This document shows, in pieces, positions 55,905-63,766 of a DNA stretch of 64,000 bases. The notes below the pieces were generated by a model, which saw only the letters and a program-made list of their open reading frames with translations, ran no database searches and was not told where the DNA came from. The stretch's first letter is position 1; the number at the start of each line of letters is the position of its first letter. Origin of the DNA: Paludibacter sp. (GTDB lineage: Bacteria; Bacteroidota; Bacteroidia; Bacteroidales; Paludibacteraceae); contig JAQUWU010000015.1 of the NCBI GenBank assembly GCA_028692715.1, positions 23,912 to 87,911 on the forward strand. Direction: 5' to 3'. Both the position numbers and the translations under genes were made by a program.

Positions 55905-56003
55905 ATGAAAACGAGAAACTTTAAATATTTTTTCGAAATATGCAACTCACAGCAAAACAGTTGCGTGGGAAAGTTGCCTCAAAAAAATTCAAAACCAATA
56001 TAA
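55905..56003 (+). CDS. Possible 32-aa leader peptide ahead of pyrB
   Basis: Reading frame MKTRNFKYFFEICNSQQNSC... of 32 codons, starting about 10 bases after the -7 box and ending inside the 5' arm of the terminator hairpin at 55991-56033. An early U-rich stretch (55920-55934) could slow polymerase when UTP is low. The layout recalls the pyrL leader of the enterobacterial pyrBI operon. There is no Shine-Dalgarno site and the mRNA would be nearly leaderless, so translation is uncertain. Confidence 0.35.
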   Translation: MKTRNFKYFFEICNSQQNSCVGKLPQKNSKPI

Positions 56004-56033
56004 ATCGACTGTAGATTTGTGTTGGTTTTTTTT
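55991..56033 (+). terminator. Strong terminator hairpin in pyrB leader (candidate attenuator)
   Basis: 16-bp stem: AAAACCAA pairs with TTGGTTTT and TATAAATC pairs with GATTTGTG, including two G-U pairs. The loop is GACTGTA and eight T residues follow. It stands between the promoter at 55888 and pyrB. Upstream, GCAACT (55942) can pair with either of two AGTTGC sites (55959, 55972). Confidence 0.7.
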
Positions 56034-56036
56034 ATA

Positions 56037-56144
56037 ACCCCTAACCCCTAAAGGGTAATAAATAAGAAATATCAAATTTTTTGTATATTAATAGAATTAC
56101 TAACAAAAAAAAACTATCTTAAAGCCCCTTTAGGGGTTTGGGGA
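56037..56144. repeat. MITE-like palindromic-end element before pyrB
   Basis: 108 bp. The left end CCCCTAACCCCTAAAGGG and the reverse complement of the right end (CCCCAAACCCCTAAAGGGG) match at 17 of 18 positions. Each end is itself a CCC-TAAA-GGG palindrome. The core is AT-rich. It ends 13 bp before the pyrB ATG. Confidence 0.85.
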
Positions 56145-56157
56145 CTTCTTAAATCCT

Positions 56158-57072
56158 ATGAGCAAAAACGGTTTAGTATCCATTTCCGATTACAGTAAAG
56201 AAGAAATTCTTAGTATTCTGGATTCAGCGGCAGAATTTGAAGCTAATCCGAATAGAAAAACACTTGATGGAAAAGTAATTGCTACACTTTTCTTTGAACC
56301 TTCAACGCGTACACGATTGAGTTTTGAAACAGCTGTTATCAGACTTGGCGGATCCATCATCGGATTTTCTGATGCAGCTACCAGTAGTTCATCTAAAGGC
56401 GAAACACTAAATGATACCATTCATATGGTAAGTTGTTATGCAGATGCAATTGTAATGAGACATCCGCTGGAAGGTGCAGCAAGATACGCTGCTGAAGTTT
56501 CACCTGTTCCAATAATAAATGCCGGAGATGGTGCAAATCAGCATCCTTCGCAAACCTTACTGGATTTATACTCAATTTTAAAAACTCAGGGAACACTGGA
56601 GAATCTTACCATTTGTTTAGTCGGCGATTTGAAATATGGGCGAACTGTCCATTCATTATTAATGGCAATGTCACATTTTCATCCTACATTTAAATTTATT
56701 GCACCGGATGAATTGAAAATGCCGGATGAGTATAAAGTATTTTGTAAAAACAACAATATAGCTTTTACAGAAGTAAATGAATTAAATGACAATTTTAATG
56801 ATGCTGACATTCTATATATGACACGTGTTCAAAAAGAACGTTTTCAGGATTTAATGGAATACGAGCAAGTAAAAAATGTGTACACACTTAAAAATGAAAT
56901 GCTTGCGAATTCAAAACCAAATTTAAGAATTTTACATCCCCTACCCCGGGTAACTGAAATTAATCCGGATGTAGACAGTAATAAAAAAGCATATTATTTT
57001 CAACAGGCTCAAAACGGGCTGTATGTTAGACAAGCAATTGTAAGTAAGGTCCTTAACGAAAATAAAAAATGA
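56158..57072 (+). CDS. pyrB: Aspartate carbamoyltransferase catalytic subunit
   Basis: 304 aa. It makes carbamoyl aspartate, the first committed pyrimidine step. The carbamoyl-phosphate loop [15 protein letters not shown] is at about residues 47-61, with the [13 protein letters not shown] loop, HPSQTLLD and the C-terminal [12 protein letters not shown]. The stop codon overlaps the next gene by 4 bp (ATGA), and the regulatory subunit gene lies two genes on. Possible regulation by leader attenuation is described separately. Confidence 0.97.
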
Positions 57073-57935
57073 AAGATTGGTTAAATGGAATACCCTATGA
57101 AATTGCTTTTTGGTCATCAGTTTTCAAAAACAAGAAATCAAGAAATAATCTACTCTTGTGGTCACAAAACAATTGCACAATCAACAATAAAATACTTAAT
57201 TTAGAGGAATTTTTATCTAGTACTAAGTATTCAACAGTTCTAGATGTAGGTTGCGGAATGAGTTTCAGGACTAAATACATACTAAAAAATTATGATGTTA
57301 ATTTACAATATATTGACCCATTAGCTGACTATTTTAATAAAATTGCAATTAAGAATAAAGTAAATGTGCCAAATATTCAATTTGGAATGCTGGAATATCT
57401 ATCTGCATTTTATCCAGCTAAAAACATCTCACTTATTTTCATTTTCAACGCACTTGATCACTCACAAAACCCAATAAAGGGACTTTTTGAATGTATTGAA
57501 ATATTAAAAATAGGTGGTATTATTTATTTACAACATCATAACAATGAAGCAGAAACAGAAAGTTATCGGGGATTTCACAAATTCAATATTACTATTGATG
57601 AAAATCAACTAATAATTTGGAATAAAAAAAATCGATATAATATAAATGAATTATTTACTGACTTTGCAGAAGTTATTACTGATTTTACAGGCGATGAACC
57701 AACTGCAATTATAAAAAAAACAAAAAACACATCTAAAATATCTATTAATGACGATGATGACAAACGATTTTTGTGTGAAAATTTGATTAATTTCACCAAA
57801 GAGATGTCTTCATTATCATTTGTTCTAAAATATCATATTAAACTTAGATGGTATTTTTTTATCCATTTTGTATTTCAGTATCTTAGTTTCGACTTTAAGA
57901 GAAAAATTAAAAGAGCTATTCGCAAAATTAAATAA
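57069..57935 (+). CDS. SAM-dependent methyltransferase between pyrB and pyrI
   Basis: 288 aa. Class I methyltransferase with SAM motif [16 protein letters not shown] (about 57-71), an acidic ribose-binding residue in YIDPLADY, motif IV-like [14 protein letters not shown] and [15 protein letters not shown]. The C-terminal ~60 residues are hydrophobic then very basic ([22 protein letters not shown]) and may bind membrane. The substrate is unknown; similar proteins occur in surface-polysaccharide loci. It is coupled to pyrB by a 4-bp overlap and lies 8 bp before pyrI, and it is more AT-rich than its neighbours, so it looks like an acquired insert. Confidence 0.85.
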
Positions 57936-57943
57936 CTAACTTT

Positions 57944-58399
57944 ATGGAAAAGAAATTAAAAGTAGCTGCACTTTGTAACGGAACAGTTATTGATCATATA
58001 CCTTCTGATAAATTATTCAAGGTTGTTTCTATTTTGCATTTGGAATCTTGTTTGAATCAAATAACGTTGGCAAACAATCTGGAAAGTGCCAAAATTGGTT
58101 CAAAAGGGCTTATTAAAATATCAGACAGGGCTTTTGCTGAAAATGAAACGAATAAAATTGCGCTAATTGCACCTAATGCAAAAATTAATATTATTAGAAA
58201 TTTTCAGGTAGTGGAGAAACGACCATTGATATTACCGAATGAAATACGAGAAATAGTGCAATGCACAAACCTGAAATGTATTACGAATAATCAACCAGTT
58301 ACTACCAGATTTCACATTATTAAAAATGGGGATGAGATTATGTTAAAATGTCATTACTGCGAAAGGGAAGTAAGACGAGAAGATGCAAAAATAAAATAG
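57944..58399 (+). CDS. pyrI: Aspartate carbamoyltransferase regulatory subunit
   Basis: 151 aa. The N-terminal nucleotide-binding domain (VAALCNGTVIDHIPSDKLFKVVSIL) is followed by a C-terminal zinc domain with four cysteines (CTNLKC and CHYC). It binds CTP/ATP and links catalytic trimers to give allosteric control. The family normally sits directly after pyrB; here a methyltransferase gene intervenes. Confidence 0.95.
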   Translation: MEKKLKVAALCNGTVIDHIPSDKLFKVVSILHLESCLNQITLANNLESAKIGSKGLIKISDRAFAENETNKIALIAPNAKINIIRNFQVVEKRPLILPNEIREIVQCTNLKCITNNQPVTTRFHIIKNGDEIMLKCHYCEREVRREDAKIK

Positions 58400-58405
58400 A
58401 AGCAC

Positions 58406-58506
58406 TTAAATCCCCCATGGCGGACTTTAAGACAAAAAATATGAAAAGCAATAAAGATTTCAACAATATAAATAGTCAAAAAATCCCTTCCAGGGAAGTT
58501 GAAGGG
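58406..58506. repeat. MITE-like element overlapping the flavin reductase start
   Basis: The left end TTAAATCCCCCATGGCGGACTT and the reverse complement of the right end (CCCTTCAACTTCCCTGGAAGGGATTT) share the CCC-palindrome-GGG design, though more degraded than in other copies. The gene's candidate start codons (58417, 58441) lie within it. Confidence 0.6.
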
Positions 58507-59076
58507 AATTCAAAAGTCAACTGGAAACCCGGTACATTAATTTATCCACTTCCTGCCATTTTAGTTTCTTGTGGAAATTCTCCTGAAAACTATAATGTCC
58601 TTACAATAAGCTGGGTAGGCACAATCTGTACCAATCCACCTATGTGCTACATATCAGTACGTCCGGAACGTCATTCATATAATATCATTAAAGAAAGCGG
58701 AGAATTTGTATTAAATCTCACCAATGAGGATATGGCATTTGCAACCGATTGGTGTGGCGTAAAAAGTGGAAAAGATTTCAATAAATTTGCTGAAATGAAG
58801 TTAACTCCAATTAAAGGAGAAAAAGTAAATGCGCCAATTATAAAAGAATCACCACTTAGTATTGAATGCAAAGTAAAAAAAATTATTCCGCTTGGATCAC
58901 ACGATATGTTTATTGCAGAAGTAGTAAATGTTCAAGCTGACTCCCAATACATCGATCCGAAAACTGACACTTTCAAACTTTCTGAGGCAAAACTAATAGC
59001 TTATTCACACGGACATTACTATAAACTTGGTGAAGAAATAGGAAAATTTGGCTGGACAGTGAAAAAGAAAAAATAA
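58441..59076 (+). CDS. Flavin reductase family (FMN-binding) protein
   Basis: 211 aa from ATG 58441; ATG 58417 is also possible. Homology to the family begins only at VNWKPGTLIYPLPAILVSCG (about residue 24). It continues through NVLTISWVGTICTNPPMCYISVRPERHSYNII and GEFVLNLTNEDMAFATDWCGVKSGKDFNKF to YYKLGEEIGKFGWTV. These split-barrel proteins bind FMN and act as NAD(P)H:flavin reductases or hydrolases. The N-terminal ~22 residues are encoded by a repeat element, so the original start was probably displaced. Confidence 0.85.
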   Translation: MKSNKDFNNINSQKIPSREVEGNSKVNWKPGTLIYPLPAILVSCGNSPENYNVLTISWVGTICTNPPMCYISVRPERHSYNIIKESGEFVLNLTNEDMAFATDWCGVKSGKDFNKFAEMKLTPIKGEKVNAPIIKESPLSIECKVKKIIPLGSHDMFIAEVVNVQADSQYIDPKTDTFKLSEAKLIAYSHGHYYKLGEEIGKFGWTVKKKK

Positions 59077-59081
59077 AAATG

Positions 59082-59187
59082 ACCCCGAACCCATAAATGG
59101 GAAACTGAGTTAGTTTTATATTTGAATTATCTGTAAATTATCAAAACATAAGTAACATTTCTTATCCCCCTTTAGGAGTTAGGAGTC
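59082..59187. repeat. MITE-like palindromic-end element before the CAT-like gene
   Basis: 106 bp. The left end GACCCCGAACCCATAAATGGG is inverse to the right end CCCCCTTTAGGAGTTAGGAGTC, and both contain short palindromes. It ends 5 bp before the ATG. The right end supplies GGAG at an SD-like distance. Confidence 0.75.
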
Positions 59188-59192
59188 GTATT

Positions 59193-59825
59193 ATGAAACA
59201 CGAAATTGATCTATCAACATGGAAACGCAGAGAACACTTCGAAAATTTCAAAAATTTCGATGAGCCTTTGTTTGGTTTAACTGTTCGTGTTGAGTGCTCT
59301 GTGGCTTATAAAAAAGCAAAAGAACTTGGCTATCCGTTTTCACTTTTTTATTTATTCTTATCGATGAAAGCTGCAAACGAAATTGAGGAATTCCGTTATC
59401 GTATTGAAGATGATAAAGTTGTTTGTTATGACAGTGTGGGTGCAGGTCCTACTATATTTCGTAAAGATGAAACCTATGGATGCGGATATATGCCATACAA
59501 TGAAGATATTGATACTTTTATGGCTCAGGCAAAAGTTGAAACTGAACGTGTAAAAGATGAAAAGGGGTTGAAATTTCCCTATGCAGGCGAAGATATTTTG
59601 CATTATTCAACCTTGCCATGGGCCGATTTTACATCGGTTAATCACGCACGTAATTTAAGCACTGGAAGAAGTATTCCTAAAATTACATTTGGAAAAATAA
59701 CACGTGTTGAAGAAAAAGCACAAATGTGGATGCCTGTGGATATACATGTAAATCATGCATTAATGGATGGTTTTCATGTTGGGAAGTTTATTGAAAAATT
59801 TCAGGAACTATTGAATCAGGAGTAA
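59193..59825 (+). CDS. Chloramphenicol acetyltransferase-like protein (CatA fold)
   Basis: 210 aa, the usual CAT length. N-terminal TWKRREHFENFKNFDEPLFGLTVRVE, middle LPWADFTSVNHARN and the catalytic histidine H188 in VNHALMDGFHVGKF (family pattern HxxxDG). The general CatA fold transfers acetyl from acetyl-CoA to a hydroxyl. Many Bacteroidota carry such chromosomal copies without resistance, so the physiological acceptor is open. No mobile element or resistance partner is adjacent. Confidence 0.88.
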   Translation: MKHEIDLSTWKRREHFENFKNFDEPLFGLTVRVECSVAYKKAKELGYPFSLFYLFLSMKAANEIEEFRYRIEDDKVVCYDSVGAGPTIFRKDETYGCGYMPYNEDIDTFMAQAKVETERVKDEKGLKFPYAGEDILHYSTLPWADFTSVNHARNLSTGRSIPKITFGKITRVEEKAQMWMPVDIHVNHALMDGFHVGKFIEKFQELLNQE

Positions 59826-59889
59826 GCAGTAAACAGTAAACAATGAGCAGTAAACAGTTAGCAGTAAACAGTAAACAGTAAACAGTAAA
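59826..59889. repeat. AGTAAAC tandem repeat
   Basis: About nine imperfect copies of a 7-bp unit (CAGTAAA), with variants AATGAG and CAGTTAG, directly after the CAT-like stop codon. Likely slippage-prone. Confidence 0.85.
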
Positions 59890-59937
59890 AAAAAACAAAT
59901 CAAATAAACAATTATATAAACAAACTAATCAAAATTT

Positions 59938-59963
59938 CCTCCTTCGGAGGAATTTAGGGAGGC
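59938..59963. repeat. Half of a palindromic-end element before glyA
   Basis: CCTCC-TTC-GGAGG followed by AATTTAGGGAGG resembles a right end of the family, 4 bp before the glyA ATG. The matching left end is missing and the AGTAAAC track lies where it would be. Confidence 0.65.
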
Positions 59964-59967
59964 TTAA

Positions 59968-61248
59968 ATGAAAAGAGACCAAATTATTTTTGACATTATT
60001 GAACGTGAAAAAAAACGTCAATTAAAAGGAATTGAATTAATTGCTTCAGAAAACTTTGTTAGCGAACAAGTTATGGAAGCTATGGGTTCTGTACTAACAA
60101 ATAAATATGCCGAAGGTTATCCGGGCAAACGTTATTATGGCGGTTGCGAAGTAGTGGATATGAGCGAACAAATTGCCATCGACCGCTTAAAAGAAATTTT
60201 TGGTGCTGAATGGGCAAATGTTCAACCACACTCTGGCGCACAAGCAAATGCAGCAGTGTTTTTGGCTTGTTTAAACCCTGGCGATAAATTTCTGGGATTA
60301 AATCTGGCTCATGGTGGTCATTTATCACACGGTTCGTTGGTTAACAGTTCCGGTATTCTTTACAAACCATGCGAATACAATGTAAAAGAAGAAACAGGTC
60401 GAGTAGATTATGACCAAATGGAAGAAGTAGCCGTTCGTGAACAACCAAAACTGATTGTTGGAGGTGGCTCAGCATATTCTCGCGAGTGGGACTATAAACG
60501 TATGCGCGAAATTGCCGACAAAGTGGGTGCTTTATTGATGATTGACATGGCTCACCCCGCAGGACTAATTGCTGCCGGACTCCTTGAAAATCCATTAAAA
60601 TGGGCACATATTGTAACTTCAACTACTCATAAAACATTACGTGGACCTCGTGGTGGTATTATTTTATTAGGAAAAGACTTTCCAAATCCTTGGGGCAAAA
60701 CAAATCCAAAAGGCGAAATAAAAATGATGTCTGCCCTACTCGACTCCGCTGTTTTCCCGGGAATTCAGGGCGGTCCGCTAGAACACGTAATTGCAGCAAA
60801 AGCAGTATCATTTGGTGAATGTCTTCAACCTGAATATAAAACCTATCAGGTTCAGGTCCAGAAAAACGCTGCTGCATTGGCAAAAGCATTAATTTCACGT
60901 GGCTTTACTATTATTTCAGGTGGAACGGATAATCATTCCATGTTGGTAGATTTACGTTCTAAGTTTCCTGAATTGACAGGTAAAGTGGCTGAGAAAGTGT
61001 TGGTTGAAGCTGATATCACAGTAAATAAAAACATGGTACCTTTCGACAGTCGTTCAGCTTTCCAGACTTCAGGAATCCGTCTTGGAACACCGGCCATTAC
61101 TACTCGTGGAGCAAAAGAACCTTTGATGGAAGAAATTGCTGAAATGATAGAAACTGTACTTTCAAACATTGAAAACGAAGCAGTTATAAAATCAGTTCGC
61201 GAACGTGTAAATAAAACAATGGAAAAATATCCGTTATTTGCTGACTAA
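59968..61248 (+). CDS. glyA: Serine hydroxymethyltransferase
   Basis: 426 aa. PLP enzyme converting serine and tetrahydrofolate to glycine and methylene-THF. Marks: [56 protein letters not shown] and the PLP-lysine site [15 protein letters not shown] (lysine about 222). Length is normal. Its start is preceded by a GGAGG-containing repeat end that could serve as an SD, unusual for this genome. Confidence 0.97.
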
Positions 61249-61313
61249 AATAAAATTGAAGATTGAAGATTGAAGAATGAAAATAAAAAAAGATATAAAA
61301 TTGAACAAAGAAA

Positions 61314-61682
61314 ATGGATCAAGTAAGTAATTTTAATGATGCATTACAATCTCGAACTAAGAAATTTGCGACAGATATAATTCGATTTTACATTGCTAAT
61401 TGCAAAAAAGAAGAGGAGTTAAGAATCATCGGCAAACAATTTTTTCGATCTGGAACTTCAGTGGCAGCTAATTTTCGTGCATATATTCGAGGACGTTCAG
61501 AAGCTGAGAGATATGCAAAATTATGTATTGTTGTTGAGGAGATCGATGAAACACTTTTTTGGTTTGAGCTGTTGGAGTCATCAGAGTTATTTAAACCAGA
61601 AATAATTTCAGATATTAAACAAGAGGCTTTTGAATTATTGAAGATATTTTCTTCTGTACGTTCAAAAATGAAAACAAAATAA
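61314..61682 (+). CDS. Four-helix-bundle protein (S23/IVP family)
   Basis: 122 aa. Helical protein with the family pattern FATDIIRFYIANCKK...GKQFFRSGTSVAANFRAYIRGRSEAERYAKLCIVVEEIDETLFWFELL. Relatives were first seen as ORFs in intervening sequences of 23S rRNA genes and also occur alone, as here. The gene is flanked by inverted copies of an ATTGAAGATTGAAGAATG-like track. Function unknown. Confidence 0.9.
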   Translation: MDQVSNFNDALQSRTKKFATDIIRFYIANCKKEEELRIIGKQFFRSGTSVAANFRAYIRGRSEAERYAKLCIVVEEIDETLFWFELLESSELFKPEIISDIKQEAFELLKIFSSVRSKMKTK

Positions 61683-61724
61683 TTTTATACAATTTTCATT
61701 CTTCAATTTTCATTCTTCATACAT

Positions 61725-62717
61725 ATGATTGAAAAAATATACGAACTTTCAGAATTAACCGACTCTACTGTTTTTTATGGAATAAATAACAGCAATGTTC
61801 AGTTAATAAAAAACTTAATGCCCAATATTCGGTTTTCGGCGAGGGGAAACATTATTAAATTGGCTGGAAATGAAAGTGATATCAACAATTTATATTCAAT
61901 CATTGAAAAATTAGAACGTTATTGCATCGATAATAATATTCTTTCTGAAGAAAATATAATTGAGATAGTAAAGGGACACGATCCTGTAGAAATTAAATTT
62001 GAAAATTTAATTTTACATGGAGTAAATGGAAAATCCATCATGGCTCGTACTACCAATCAGCAGAAATTGGTAACTGATTTTGAAACCAATGACTTGCTTT
62101 TTGCTATAGGACCAGCAGGTTCCGGAAAAACGTATACTGCCATTGCTTTAGCAGTTCGTTCGTTGAAAAACCGTGAAGTAAAAAAAATTATTCTTAGTCG
62201 ACCGGCGGTGGAAGCGGGTGAAAAGCTCGGATTTCTTCCCGGAGACATGAAGGAAAAAATTGATCCGTATTTGCAACCATTGTACGATGCATTACAGGAC
62301 ATGATTACACCTTTGAAACTAAAAGAATATTTGGAAAATGGAACCATTCAAATAGCACCACTTGCATTCATGCGTGGGCGGACTTTAAGCGATGCCGTCA
62401 TTATTCTCGACGAGGCGCAAAATACCAGCACGATGCAAATCAAAATGTTCCTAACGCGTATGGGACTGAATGCCAAAATGATAATCACCGGTGATATGAC
62501 TCAGATTGATTTACCATATCAACAGAAATCAGGTTTAATTGATGCGTTAGAAGTTTTGAAAAACATTAAAGGCATTGCGCGTGTTGAATTTGATGTAAAG
62601 GATATTGTACGACACAAATTGGTACAACGAATTGTGGAAGCATATGAGAAACGTACCCTCCGACCCCCTGAAGGGGGAGTAAGAAAAAACCCACAAAATT
62701 CAGTCAAAGAGGAATAA
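61725..62717 (+). CDS. phoH: PhoH family ATPase
   Basis: 330 aa. N-terminal part with an ~80-residue KH-like region (IRFSARGNIIKLAGNESDINNLY), then a PhoH helicase-like ATPase with Walker A GPAGSGKT (129-136), RPAVEAGEKLGFLPGD, Walker B VIILDEAQNTS and MIITGDMTQIDLP. PhoH-like proteins act in RNA processing. The last ~20 residues (RTLRPPEGGVRKN...) come from a repeat element that overruns the C-terminus, and the original stop was probably a little upstream. Confidence 0.93.
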   Translation: MIEKIYELSELTDSTVFYGINNSNVQLIKNLMPNIRFSARGNIIKLAGNESDINNLYSIIEKLERYCIDNNILSEENIIEIVKGHDPVEIKFENLILHGVNGKSIMARTTNQQKLVTDFETNDLLFAIGPAGSGKTYTAIALAVRSLKNREVKKIILSRPAVEAGEKLGFLPGDMKEKIDPYLQPLYDALQDMITPLKLKEYLENGTIQIAPLAFMRGRTLSDAVIILDEAQNTSTMQIKMFLTRMGLNAKMIITGDMTQIDLPYQQKSGLIDALEVLKNIKGIARVEFDVKDIVRHKLVQRIVEAYEKRTLRPPEGGVRKNPQNSVKEE

Positions 62718-62803
62718 TTTATAGAGATTAAGATAATTAAATATAAAAAGATAATCAATTAATTATAAACGTTCCAAGATTCCCCCTTTAGGGGGCTAAG
62801 GGG
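62656..62803. repeat. MITE-like palindromic-end element spanning phoH end and purC upstream region
   Basis: 148 bp. The left end CCCTCCGACCCCCTGAAGGGGG and the reverse complement of the right end (CCCCTTAGCCCCCTAAAGGGGG) are alike, and each holds a CCCCC-TNAA-GGGGG palindrome. It overlaps 62 bp of phoH and ends 15 bp before purC. Confidence 0.85.
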
Positions 62804-62818
62804 CATATATTTATCAAT

Positions 62819-63766
62819 ATGAACGCACTAACTAGCACCGATTTCCATTTTGATGGACAAAAAAAAGTGTATCACGGCAAAGTACGTGATGTATACACAG
62901 TAAAGAATGATTTGCTCGTGATGGTTGCCACCGACCGTATTTCTGCTTTCGATGTGGTTTTACCAAAGGGAATACCTTATAAAGGGCAAATGCTGAATCA
63001 GATTGCTGCTAAATTTTTGGACGCAACAGCCGATATTGTACAAAACTGGAAAATGGCTAGTCCTGATCCAATGGTTACTGTAGGACTTCGATGCGAAGGT
63101 TACCCTGTAGAAATGATTGTACGCGGTTATCTTTGCGGAAGTGCATGGAGAACTTATAAAAGTGGAGTTCGTGAAATCTGCGGGGTTAAAATCCCTGACG
63201 GCATGCGCGAAAACCAACGCTTTCCTAAACCTATTATTACTCCGACCACAAAAGCTGAACTGGGTCGTCACGATGAAGATATTACCCGTGAAGAAATTCT
63301 GGGTCAGAGGTTAGTTTCAGTTGAGGAATACGAGATGTTGGAAAAATACACTATGGCACTTTTTATGCGTGGGTCAGAAATGGCAGCTGCTCGTGGTTTG
63401 ATTTTAGTAGACACAAAATATGAGTTTGGTCACAGAGATGGACAGATCTATTTGATTGACGAGATTCATACACCTGATTCATCACGCTATTTCTATGCTG
63501 ATACTTATAAGGAATTATTTGAAAAAGGCGAACCACAAAAACAGCTTTCGAAAGAATTTGTACGAGAATGGTTAATGAAAAATGGTTTTCAGGGAAAAGA
63601 CGGACAACAAGTACCTGAAATGACACCTGAAATAGTGGCTGGGATTAGCGAGCGCTATATTGAATTATTTGAAAATATCTCTGGAGAAGCTTTTGACAAA
63701 GCTGATATAGCTAACATAACTACCCGTATCGAAAATAATGTTGTAGAATATTTGAAAACTCTTTAA
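62819..63766 (+). CDS. purC: Phosphoribosylaminoimidazole-succinocarboxamide synthase
   Basis: 315 aa, the longer SAICAR synthetase type. It joins CAIR and aspartate with ATP in purine synthesis. Marks: [63 protein letters not shown] and [14 protein letters not shown]. The start follows a repeat element by 15 bp. Confidence 0.97.

Follow-up and report, generated by a model that had tools for sequence, protein, structure and literature searches.

Hairpin-armed repeats at Paludibacter gene junctions are probably part of a mobile system in which larger members carry a DUF559 nuclease gene

The pyrB to purC region of Paludibacter sp. (assembly GCA_028692715.1) lies within a 64,000-nucleotide (nt) stretch of contig JAQUWU010000015.1, which we call the window, and carries several copies of a short element in which two hairpin arms resembling repetitive extragenic palindromes (REPs) stand in inverted orientation around AT-rich DNA. 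We found that matching inverted arms of this type also bracket genes for DUF559 nucleases, and sequence comparison makes it probable that the copies in the window are short, non-autonomous mobile elements of a system with larger members in which such a gene is present. That the nuclease would itself drive their movement is what we infer from this bracketing.

Results

DUF559 nuclease genes lie between matching inverted arms

Across 1.264 Mb of the same genome (G000, counting the window) and a 0.8-Mb sample from the complete genome G016, 12 genes had arms near both ends, and the only recognised type common to both samples was a small open reading frame (ORF) encoding DUF559 (G000:C34:106317-106706 and G016:C1:749946-750317). 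A search with PF04480 (DUF559) gave 99 matches, spread over 37 of the 48 same-genus genomes, and we examined 90 of these, leaving out the nine weakest or partial ones (expect value, E, from 1e-12 to 9e-4). Inverted arms of the window type stood on both sides of 38 of the 90 loci, compared with 3 of 488 control genes of similar length (Fisher p 6e-31), a set that should itself contain the two DUF559 genes just named, and with none of 60 loci of Y1 transposase genes (p 7e-11). When the 350 bp upstream of each gene were locally aligned with the reverse complement of the 350 bp downstream, a score of at least 14 was reached by 64 of the 90 DUF559 loci and 23 of the 488 controls, and a score of at least 16 by 54 and 15, respectively. 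Arms also matched better within a unit than between units (22.9 versus 8.6, with none of 10,000 permutations above 11.3), in a comparison that is biased upward because the arms were picked for matching.

The Paludibacter sp. genome itself holds seven DUF559 matches, and the ORF at C34:106317 is flanked by arms of the form CCCCC-ATTT-GGGGG. Its product matched PF04480 with an E of 2e-35 and the solved "endonuclease-like protein" PDB 3hrl with an E of 3e-19, while PF18741 fell below the cut-off and the comparison with defence families gave only a weak match (E 0.004). The available text on a Caulobacter DUF559 protein places it in the PD-(D/E)XK superfamily, describes its structure as Vsr-like and links it to DNA damage (PMC12907096). 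A wider phylum sample yielded PF04480 matches in 138 of 247 genomes, a number of them within frames of more than 1,000 amino acids (aa). At eight loci outside the genus, compared over 200-bp flanks, a score of 14 was reached by two and a score of 12 by four, and inspection by eye revealed several translated REP-like peptides such as SPLPLGEDLGEG beside DUF559; that the association with arms extends beyond the genus is suggestive only. Among open-licence papers, we found none linking DUF559 with palindromic ends.

Units are read through in frame inside host genes

Forty of the 90 DUF559 matches lay within a frame that continued well past the domain on both sides. We scanned nine such host frames, encoding isoleucyl-tRNA synthetase (IleRS), valyl-tRNA synthetase (ValRS), UvrA, MetH (two), FGAM synthase (PurL), a type ISP enzyme and leucyl-tRNA synthetase (LeuRS; two), and detected no protein-splicing domain in any of them, although each had DUF559 inside. 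Among these nine, the Paludibacter sp. genome supplied one in LeuRS and one in MetH. For the IleRS loop between CVAQF and YFLAWTTTPWT, 44 genomes matched and 30 loci were inspected by eye: the loop was plain in 16, held DUF559 between arms in two (a third case, G004, came from L325), held a single translated arm in one (G020, PPKSPKGDLL), carried a short insert with recognisable arms in five (G011, G021, G013, G026 and G002), and contained other or decayed inserts in six, including that of the Paludibacter sp. genome. In-frame arm or DUF559 inserts are therefore held by unrelated genes, as the IleRS loop and the 40 read-through matches illustrate. No shared core peptide was seen, since the cores from the Paludibacter sp. 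genome do not align with one another and resemblance was confined to orthologous IleRS inserts.

Separately, frames at L001:14-964 and L006:2390-3163 include translated REP-like peptides (LTPGPSPKGEG and SPLTPLLEERG), which we read as other palindromic repeats tolerated within coding sequence.

Anatomy of the window elements

The original prediction described four paired copies and one half copy in this region, of which three pairs and the single arm were recovered, and the remaining pair was not:

56038..56143, no strand: paired element 5′ of pyrB, with left arm 56038-56056, AT-rich core and right arm 56125-56143 (arm scan, fold, right arms of relatives)
58406..58506, no strand: claimed fourth pair over the flavin-reductase start, unsupported as a pair (ends neither match nor pair)
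59083..59185, no strand: paired element with diverged arms, between the flavin-reductase stop and the CAT-like ATG (arm scan; presence varies among relatives)
59938..59963, + strand: single arm from a related subfamily (CCTCC-TTC-GGAGG followed by a linker and GGGAGG), 4 bp 5′ of the glyA ATG (sequence)
62656..62803, no strand: paired element with its left arm within the 3′ end of phoH and right arm 62782-62803 (arm scan, fold)

Here CAT-like denotes a gene resembling chloramphenicol acetyltransferase. A well-formed arm consists of a C-run, a short linker and a hairpin (C-run, loop of 3–4 nt, G-run), and the other end mirrors this plan. The typical window hairpin is CCCC-TTTA-GGGG, that at 59938 is CCTCC-TTC-GGAGG, and an extra C-run or G-run lies outside. 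The description of inverted ends that are themselves palindromes around an AT-rich core was borne out by the sequence of all three pairs, and in the pair at 56038-56143 the 18-nt arms are 94% complementary. Folded as single-stranded DNA, the copy at 56036-56146 was far more stable than expected (z −4.8, 0 of 200 shuffles as good), as to a lesser degree was that at 62655-62803 (z −2.3, 2 of 200); the folds of the diverged copy at 59080-59187 (z −1.4, 19 of 200) and of the single arm (z −1.1, 34 of 200) were unremarkable. The interval 58406-58506 does span the flavin-reductase ATG at 58441, as had been claimed, but its ends are unmatched and unpaired in the fold (z −1.0, 27 of 200), it is absent from the pairs of the arm scan, and it lacks support as a pair.

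The right ends stop 14 bp before the ATG of pyrB (56158), 7 bp before that of the CAT-like gene (59193; 5 bp by the wider edge), 4 bp before that of glyA (59968) and 15 bp before that of purC (62819), within one or two bases of the distances first reported. At the other side, the pair at 59083 begins 6 bp past the upstream stop (59076, flavin reductase), and the pair at 62656 begins within the end of the phoH frame. Core length varied from 30 to 104 nt over 19 pairs of the Paludibacter sp. genome, with no single spacing peak, and among 14 of its pairs the arms were common to all and the AT-rich cores were non-aligning or mostly dissimilar. Target duplications were not noticed by eye in the listed flanks of window-type pairs, an inspection made without statistics.

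Copy number and spread

The genome is a 4.85-Mb draft in 122 contigs, and the G+C content of the window is 33.6%. The search of this genome and its relatives that had been proposed for the family returned 220 exact copies of the core palindrome CCCCTTTAGGGG in the draft (106 forward, 114 reverse) versus one of a reversed control (0 forward, 1 reverse), and our scan of 1.264 Mb found 89 arms versus 2 in one shuffle. The palindrome was held by 30 of the 35 same-genus species searched, at 2 to 261 copies each (0 to 261 within the genus as a whole), and by 6 of 24 same-order species. Arm counts in individual genomes included 227 in G067, 86 in G016, 71 in G011 and 49 in G026. Over the 48 genomes, with kinship ignored, arm number tracked DUF559 (p 0.0015), RAYT genes (for REP-associated tyrosine transposase) of subclass 2.6 (p 0.0007), any Y1 gene (p 0.0014) and genome size (rho 0.58).

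A second repeat, a 165-bp family of miniature inverted-repeat transposable elements (MITEs), was encountered at L038:322-484 and in other stretches of the Paludibacter sp. genome. Its ends are GTGACTACTCAGC and GCTGAGTAGTTAC, with 13-bp terminal inverted repeats (12 of 13 matching) and a CCCCCTTTAGGGGG hairpin beside one end; 17 copies have 8-bp target duplications (11 matching at 8 of 8 positions, six at 5–7 of 8), and some copies bear an additional hairpin insert of ~26 bp.

Elements fill short junctions between co-directional genes

Placement was analysed in the two samples named above, with genes called by a home-made hexamer scorer, so that start positions are approximate. With the 15 arms that belong to the 165-bp MITE excluded, the Paludibacter sp. 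sample comprised 19 pairs and 36 single arms; 15 elements lay within called genes or were without assignment. Sixteen pairs were in tandem junctions, and against a null of uniform placement over tandem spacer bases, 13 of these ended within 20 bp of, or overlapped, the downstream start (null 9.6%; two overlapped the called start, by 53 and 63 bp), 12 began within 20 bp of, or overlapped, the upstream stop (null 10.1%), and nine did both (null 1.4%). Single arms behaved similarly, 8 of 12 right-type arms being at starts and 9 of 11 left-type arms at stops. Of 13 pairs in G016, four were at starts, eight at stops and four at both; the bias in this genome is lowered by a repeat cluster (~688-798 kb of the contig) whose pairs are far from gene ends.

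The excess over the null was smaller when junctions, not bases, were drawn at random: 10 of 16 pairs against 31% of junctions measured 40 bp or less in the Paludibacter sp. genome (Mann-Whitney p 0.02), and 6 of 12 against 27% in G016 (p 0.21). Spacers bearing elements were tandem in 35 of 36 cases, tandem spacers already making up 75% of intergenic bases (p 5e-4; by number p 0.013), and in 25 of 28 cases in G016 (p 0.047; by number 0.17), a modest preference for tandem spacers. The predicted bias toward gene starts was thus present as a near-start excess, but as a description it was incomplete, since the upstream stop is equally abutted, and it shrank under the junction-level null. Because of this shrinkage, we view the elements as filling short co-directional junctions with no preference for starts as such, the start bias being one half of a junction-filling pattern that is clear in the Paludibacter sp. 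genome and weaker in G016.

The same junctions with and without the element in relatives

We sorted by eye 26 rows aligned at the start of the CAT-like gene. Eleven showed both arms, among them a decayed copy, a copy of a variant subfamily and a copy next to a different upstream gene; one had the right half alone, and three had other neighbours. The remaining 11 had no arms, the junction ranging in ten from overlapping genes to ~60 bp and consisting in one of ~180 bp of simple repeats. Cores at this site were alike in some species (G000, G004 and G022), so at least part of the pattern goes back to one old insertion, and the missing element may in part reflect loss. At pyrB, the right hairpin was the best conserved part across species, with changed loops and stems (e.g., CTCC-GTT-GGGAG). 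At purC, the element was found in G000, G014 and G017, in a variant form in G013 and G064, and was missing in most other relatives among the matches listed. Species thus differ in whether a given junction holds the unit, and this variation, together with copy number and the inverted arms, supports the earlier suggestion of mobile, non-autonomous elements. As to the other suggestion, that the right end may supply a hairpin and SD-like text, many species do without the element at the gene in question.

Y1 genes and other candidate movers

Y1 (RAYT) genes were the natural candidates for a partner, and an ordinary REPIN/RAYT system (paired REP elements mobilised by a RAYT), in which a Y1 protein (TnpA-REP, subclass 2.6) moves the arms in trans and DUF559 is a passenger caught between REPs, is the alternative that we took most seriously. 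The anatomy is REPIN-like, with two short inverted palindromes forming one many-copy unit, and the available text of PMC6006769 describes subclass 2.6 RAYTs with atypical flanking structures from Bacteroidetes. PF01797 gave seven matches in the Paludibacter sp. genome and matches in 40 of the 48 same-genus genomes, and a subclass-2.6 (RAYT-like) query matched in 23 of the 48, where arm number is higher (p 0.0007, as above). Yet not one of 60 Y1 loci (among which two places were counted twice) had window arms on both flanks and just three had any at all, and 86 partly overlapping Y1 loci (264 kb) had any window-type arm at just six distinct places. RAYT genes of the genus often have different palindromes of their own: the flanks at L004 and L005/L006 are other palindromes and those at L007 are CCCCTCGTT...AACGAGGGG pairs, although L007 and L283, of one RAYT lineage, do have one window-type arm ~35-40 bp outside their own upstream palindrome. 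Moreover, the arm-rich genomes G067 and G016 have no subclass-2.6 match, and the spacing between arms is not fixed. Since arms bracket none of the Y1 loci, we demoted Y1/RAYT from partner to rival and regard it as rather unlikely. The arms start with a C-run and linker in place of the GT[AG]G foot that is conserved 5′ in REPIN/RAYT palindromes, which is not decisive because subclass 2.6 likewise lacks GT[AG]G (PMC6006769, available text). The original prediction had further raised a transposase with matching ends; none was recognised among the 12 genes with arms near both ends, where aimed searches covered the Y1 family only, and what did have matching ends was the DUF559 nuclease gene.

Two further alternatives fare worse. 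The units might be MITEs of an ordinary DDE insertion sequence, akin to the 165-bp family, which shares the same hairpin beside one end and has both terminal inverted repeats and target duplications; the window pairs, too, have terminal inverted repeats in the sense of inverted arms. They lack the terminal repeats of that family, however, their arm plan differs, and by eye no target duplication stood out in the listed flanks; with transposase searches aimed at the Y1 family only, we consider this origin very improbable. Least probable of all is a non-mobile explanation, in which hairpins are locally selected at junctions as terminators, mRNA stabilisers or translation elements. Junction placement would suit such hairpins, as would the conservation of the right hairpin at pyrB despite its changed loops and stems, but many species have no element at the same junction, the same arms occur in coding sequence and around in-frame DUF559 genes, and 220 near-identical palindromes in one genome, with 0 to 261 copies within the genus, are hard to attribute to local selection.

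Alongside these comparisons, we noted that RAYT-like genes of the genus (L004, L007, L272-L291) form lineages with distinct flanking palindromes, e.g., ACGATTGCATCGT, CCCCTCGTT..AACGAGGGG and CATAGCG..CGCTATG. We also considered G016:C1:792705-793088 as a REPtron, a Y1 gene set between arm pairs, and rejected it, the nearest pairs being ~0.9 and 2 kb off within a row of unrelated small genes. That row (L249, G016:C1:790001-810000) is co-oriented, with repeated intervening text (ACATCTTGTGCTAAG.TACGCT.AACGA) and several arm pairs, and might be a gene-cassette array.

Other features of the window

Pfam matches in this part of the window identified pyrB, pyrI, flavin reductase, a CAT-like acetyltransferase, a PF05635 gene and phoH, and the names glyA and purC were taken from the original prediction:

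56158..57072, + strand: pyrB (PF02729 and PF00185)
59193..59825, + strand: CAT-like acetyltransferase (PF00302)
61725..62717, + strand: phoH-like gene, its 3′ end crossing the left arm of the third pair (PF02562)
62819..63766, + strand: purC (translation; kept in 41 of 48 same-genus genomes)

Upstream of pyrB, at 55905-56036, a 32-aa ORF (MKTRNFKYFFEICNSQQNSCVGKLPQKNSKPI) enters a strong hairpin (z −6.7, 0 of 200 shuffles as good) that is followed by a T-run, and similar text is found 5′ of pyrB in many relatives. By analogy with E. coli pyrBI, this looks like a pyrL-type leader and attenuator, and the window element is positioned between this leader and the pyrB ATG. At 61255-61722, a gene of the 23S rRNA-intervening-sequence protein family (PF05635; 61314-61682) has the tract ATTGAAGATTGAAGAATGAAAAT on one side and its inverted counterpart ATTTTCATTCTTCAAT... 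on the other, and so looks like a further small gene enclosed by inverted repeats. Short repeats of the AGTAAACAGTAAACAGT type follow one another at 59826-59890, in the gap separating the CAT-like gene from glyA.

Discussion

Two REP-like hairpin arms, inverted around AT-rich DNA, make up the unit seen in the window, and we propose that it belongs to a system with larger members that hold DUF559 between such arms. The arms might be extruded as hairpins in single-stranded DNA and recognised as the ends, whereupon the DUF559 nuclease could nick or cut at arms or targets and host repair or replication could copy the element into new sites. Insertions would then persist where they cost the host little, namely in the gaps that separate co-directional genes and as in-frame inserts in protein loops that tolerate them. 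Put in its boldest form, the proposal is that Bacteroidota have a class of mobile DNA whose driver would be a Vsr-like DUF559 nuclease and not a transposase. Hairpin arms would be its ends and junction pairs its non-autonomous copies, while full copies would reside in essential genes (such as those for aminoacyl-tRNA synthetases) as inserts translated in frame, at sites where losing them imprecisely would kill the cell; we offer this broader version tentatively, as an idea that may well prove wrong.

Several observations weigh against a system built around DUF559. The exact commonest arm, CCCCTAACCCCTAAAGGGG, brackets none of the seven DUF559 matches in the Paludibacter sp. genome, the nearest having an ATTT loop. 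G011 and G026, with 71 and 49 arms, are without a DUF559 match, both being fragmented drafts. Copy number singles out no mover, because DUF559, Y1 and genome size all correlate with it alike. No DUF559 remnants were seen in the cores of the short copies, which are therefore not plain deletion derivatives of larger members.

Among known systems, the closest in build are the REPINs (or bacterial interspersed mosaic elements) of Pseudomonas fluorescens SBW25 and their RAYT, which share two inverted short palindromes, a spacer, many copies and a mostly intergenic location. In the available text of PMC3116915, SBW25 spacing peaks at 71 and 110 bp and doublets are random in extragenic space, whereas here the spacing varies from 30 to 104 and short junctions are filled; the Paludibacter sp. 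elements differ further in that no Y1 gene has arms on both sides and that arms occur around DUF559 and within frames. Despite their REPIN-like working, we have not filed the window elements under REPIN because no cognate Y1 gene was found between the same palindromes at the 60 Y1 loci. TnpA-REP subclass 2.6 comes from the same phylum, with flanks that lack GT[AG]G and gene relatives in this genus (PMC6006769, available text), but the genes here are flanked by other palindromes and window arms do not bracket them. Rickettsia palindromic elements, as far as described in the available part of PMC10969869, are likewise palindromic, of ~100-150 bp, and many are translated in frame in unrelated genes, but they have a conserved peptide, whereas here the cores are unlike one another and a nuclease gene is present in the larger members. 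DUF559/Vsr-like endonucleases of the PD-(D/E)XK superfamily share the encoded domain, and the gene described in the available text of PMC12907096 is chromosomal and tied to mismatch repair and DNA damage, whereas the gene units here lie between palindromic arms.

The DUF559 units also occupy conserved genes in a species-variable manner. The same is familiar from homing endonuclease genes and inteins, small nuclease genes that sit in conserved genes and are present or absent by species. Unlike inteins, the units studied here came with no splicing domain in any of the nine frames scanned, and they are accompanied by hundreds of nuclease-free copies with similar ends.

REP-like palindromes are common in bacterial genomes, and the Y1 transposases are the enzyme family linked to their spread, as far as the available texts go. 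If the reading favoured here is true, a second, unrelated nuclease with REP-like ends would provide another route by which REPs spread. In many species, the junction pairs alter the ends of genes and the spacers within operons, and may therefore matter for expression. The same system would also account for the DUF559 domains found in tRNA synthetases and other essential enzymes of Bacteroidota.

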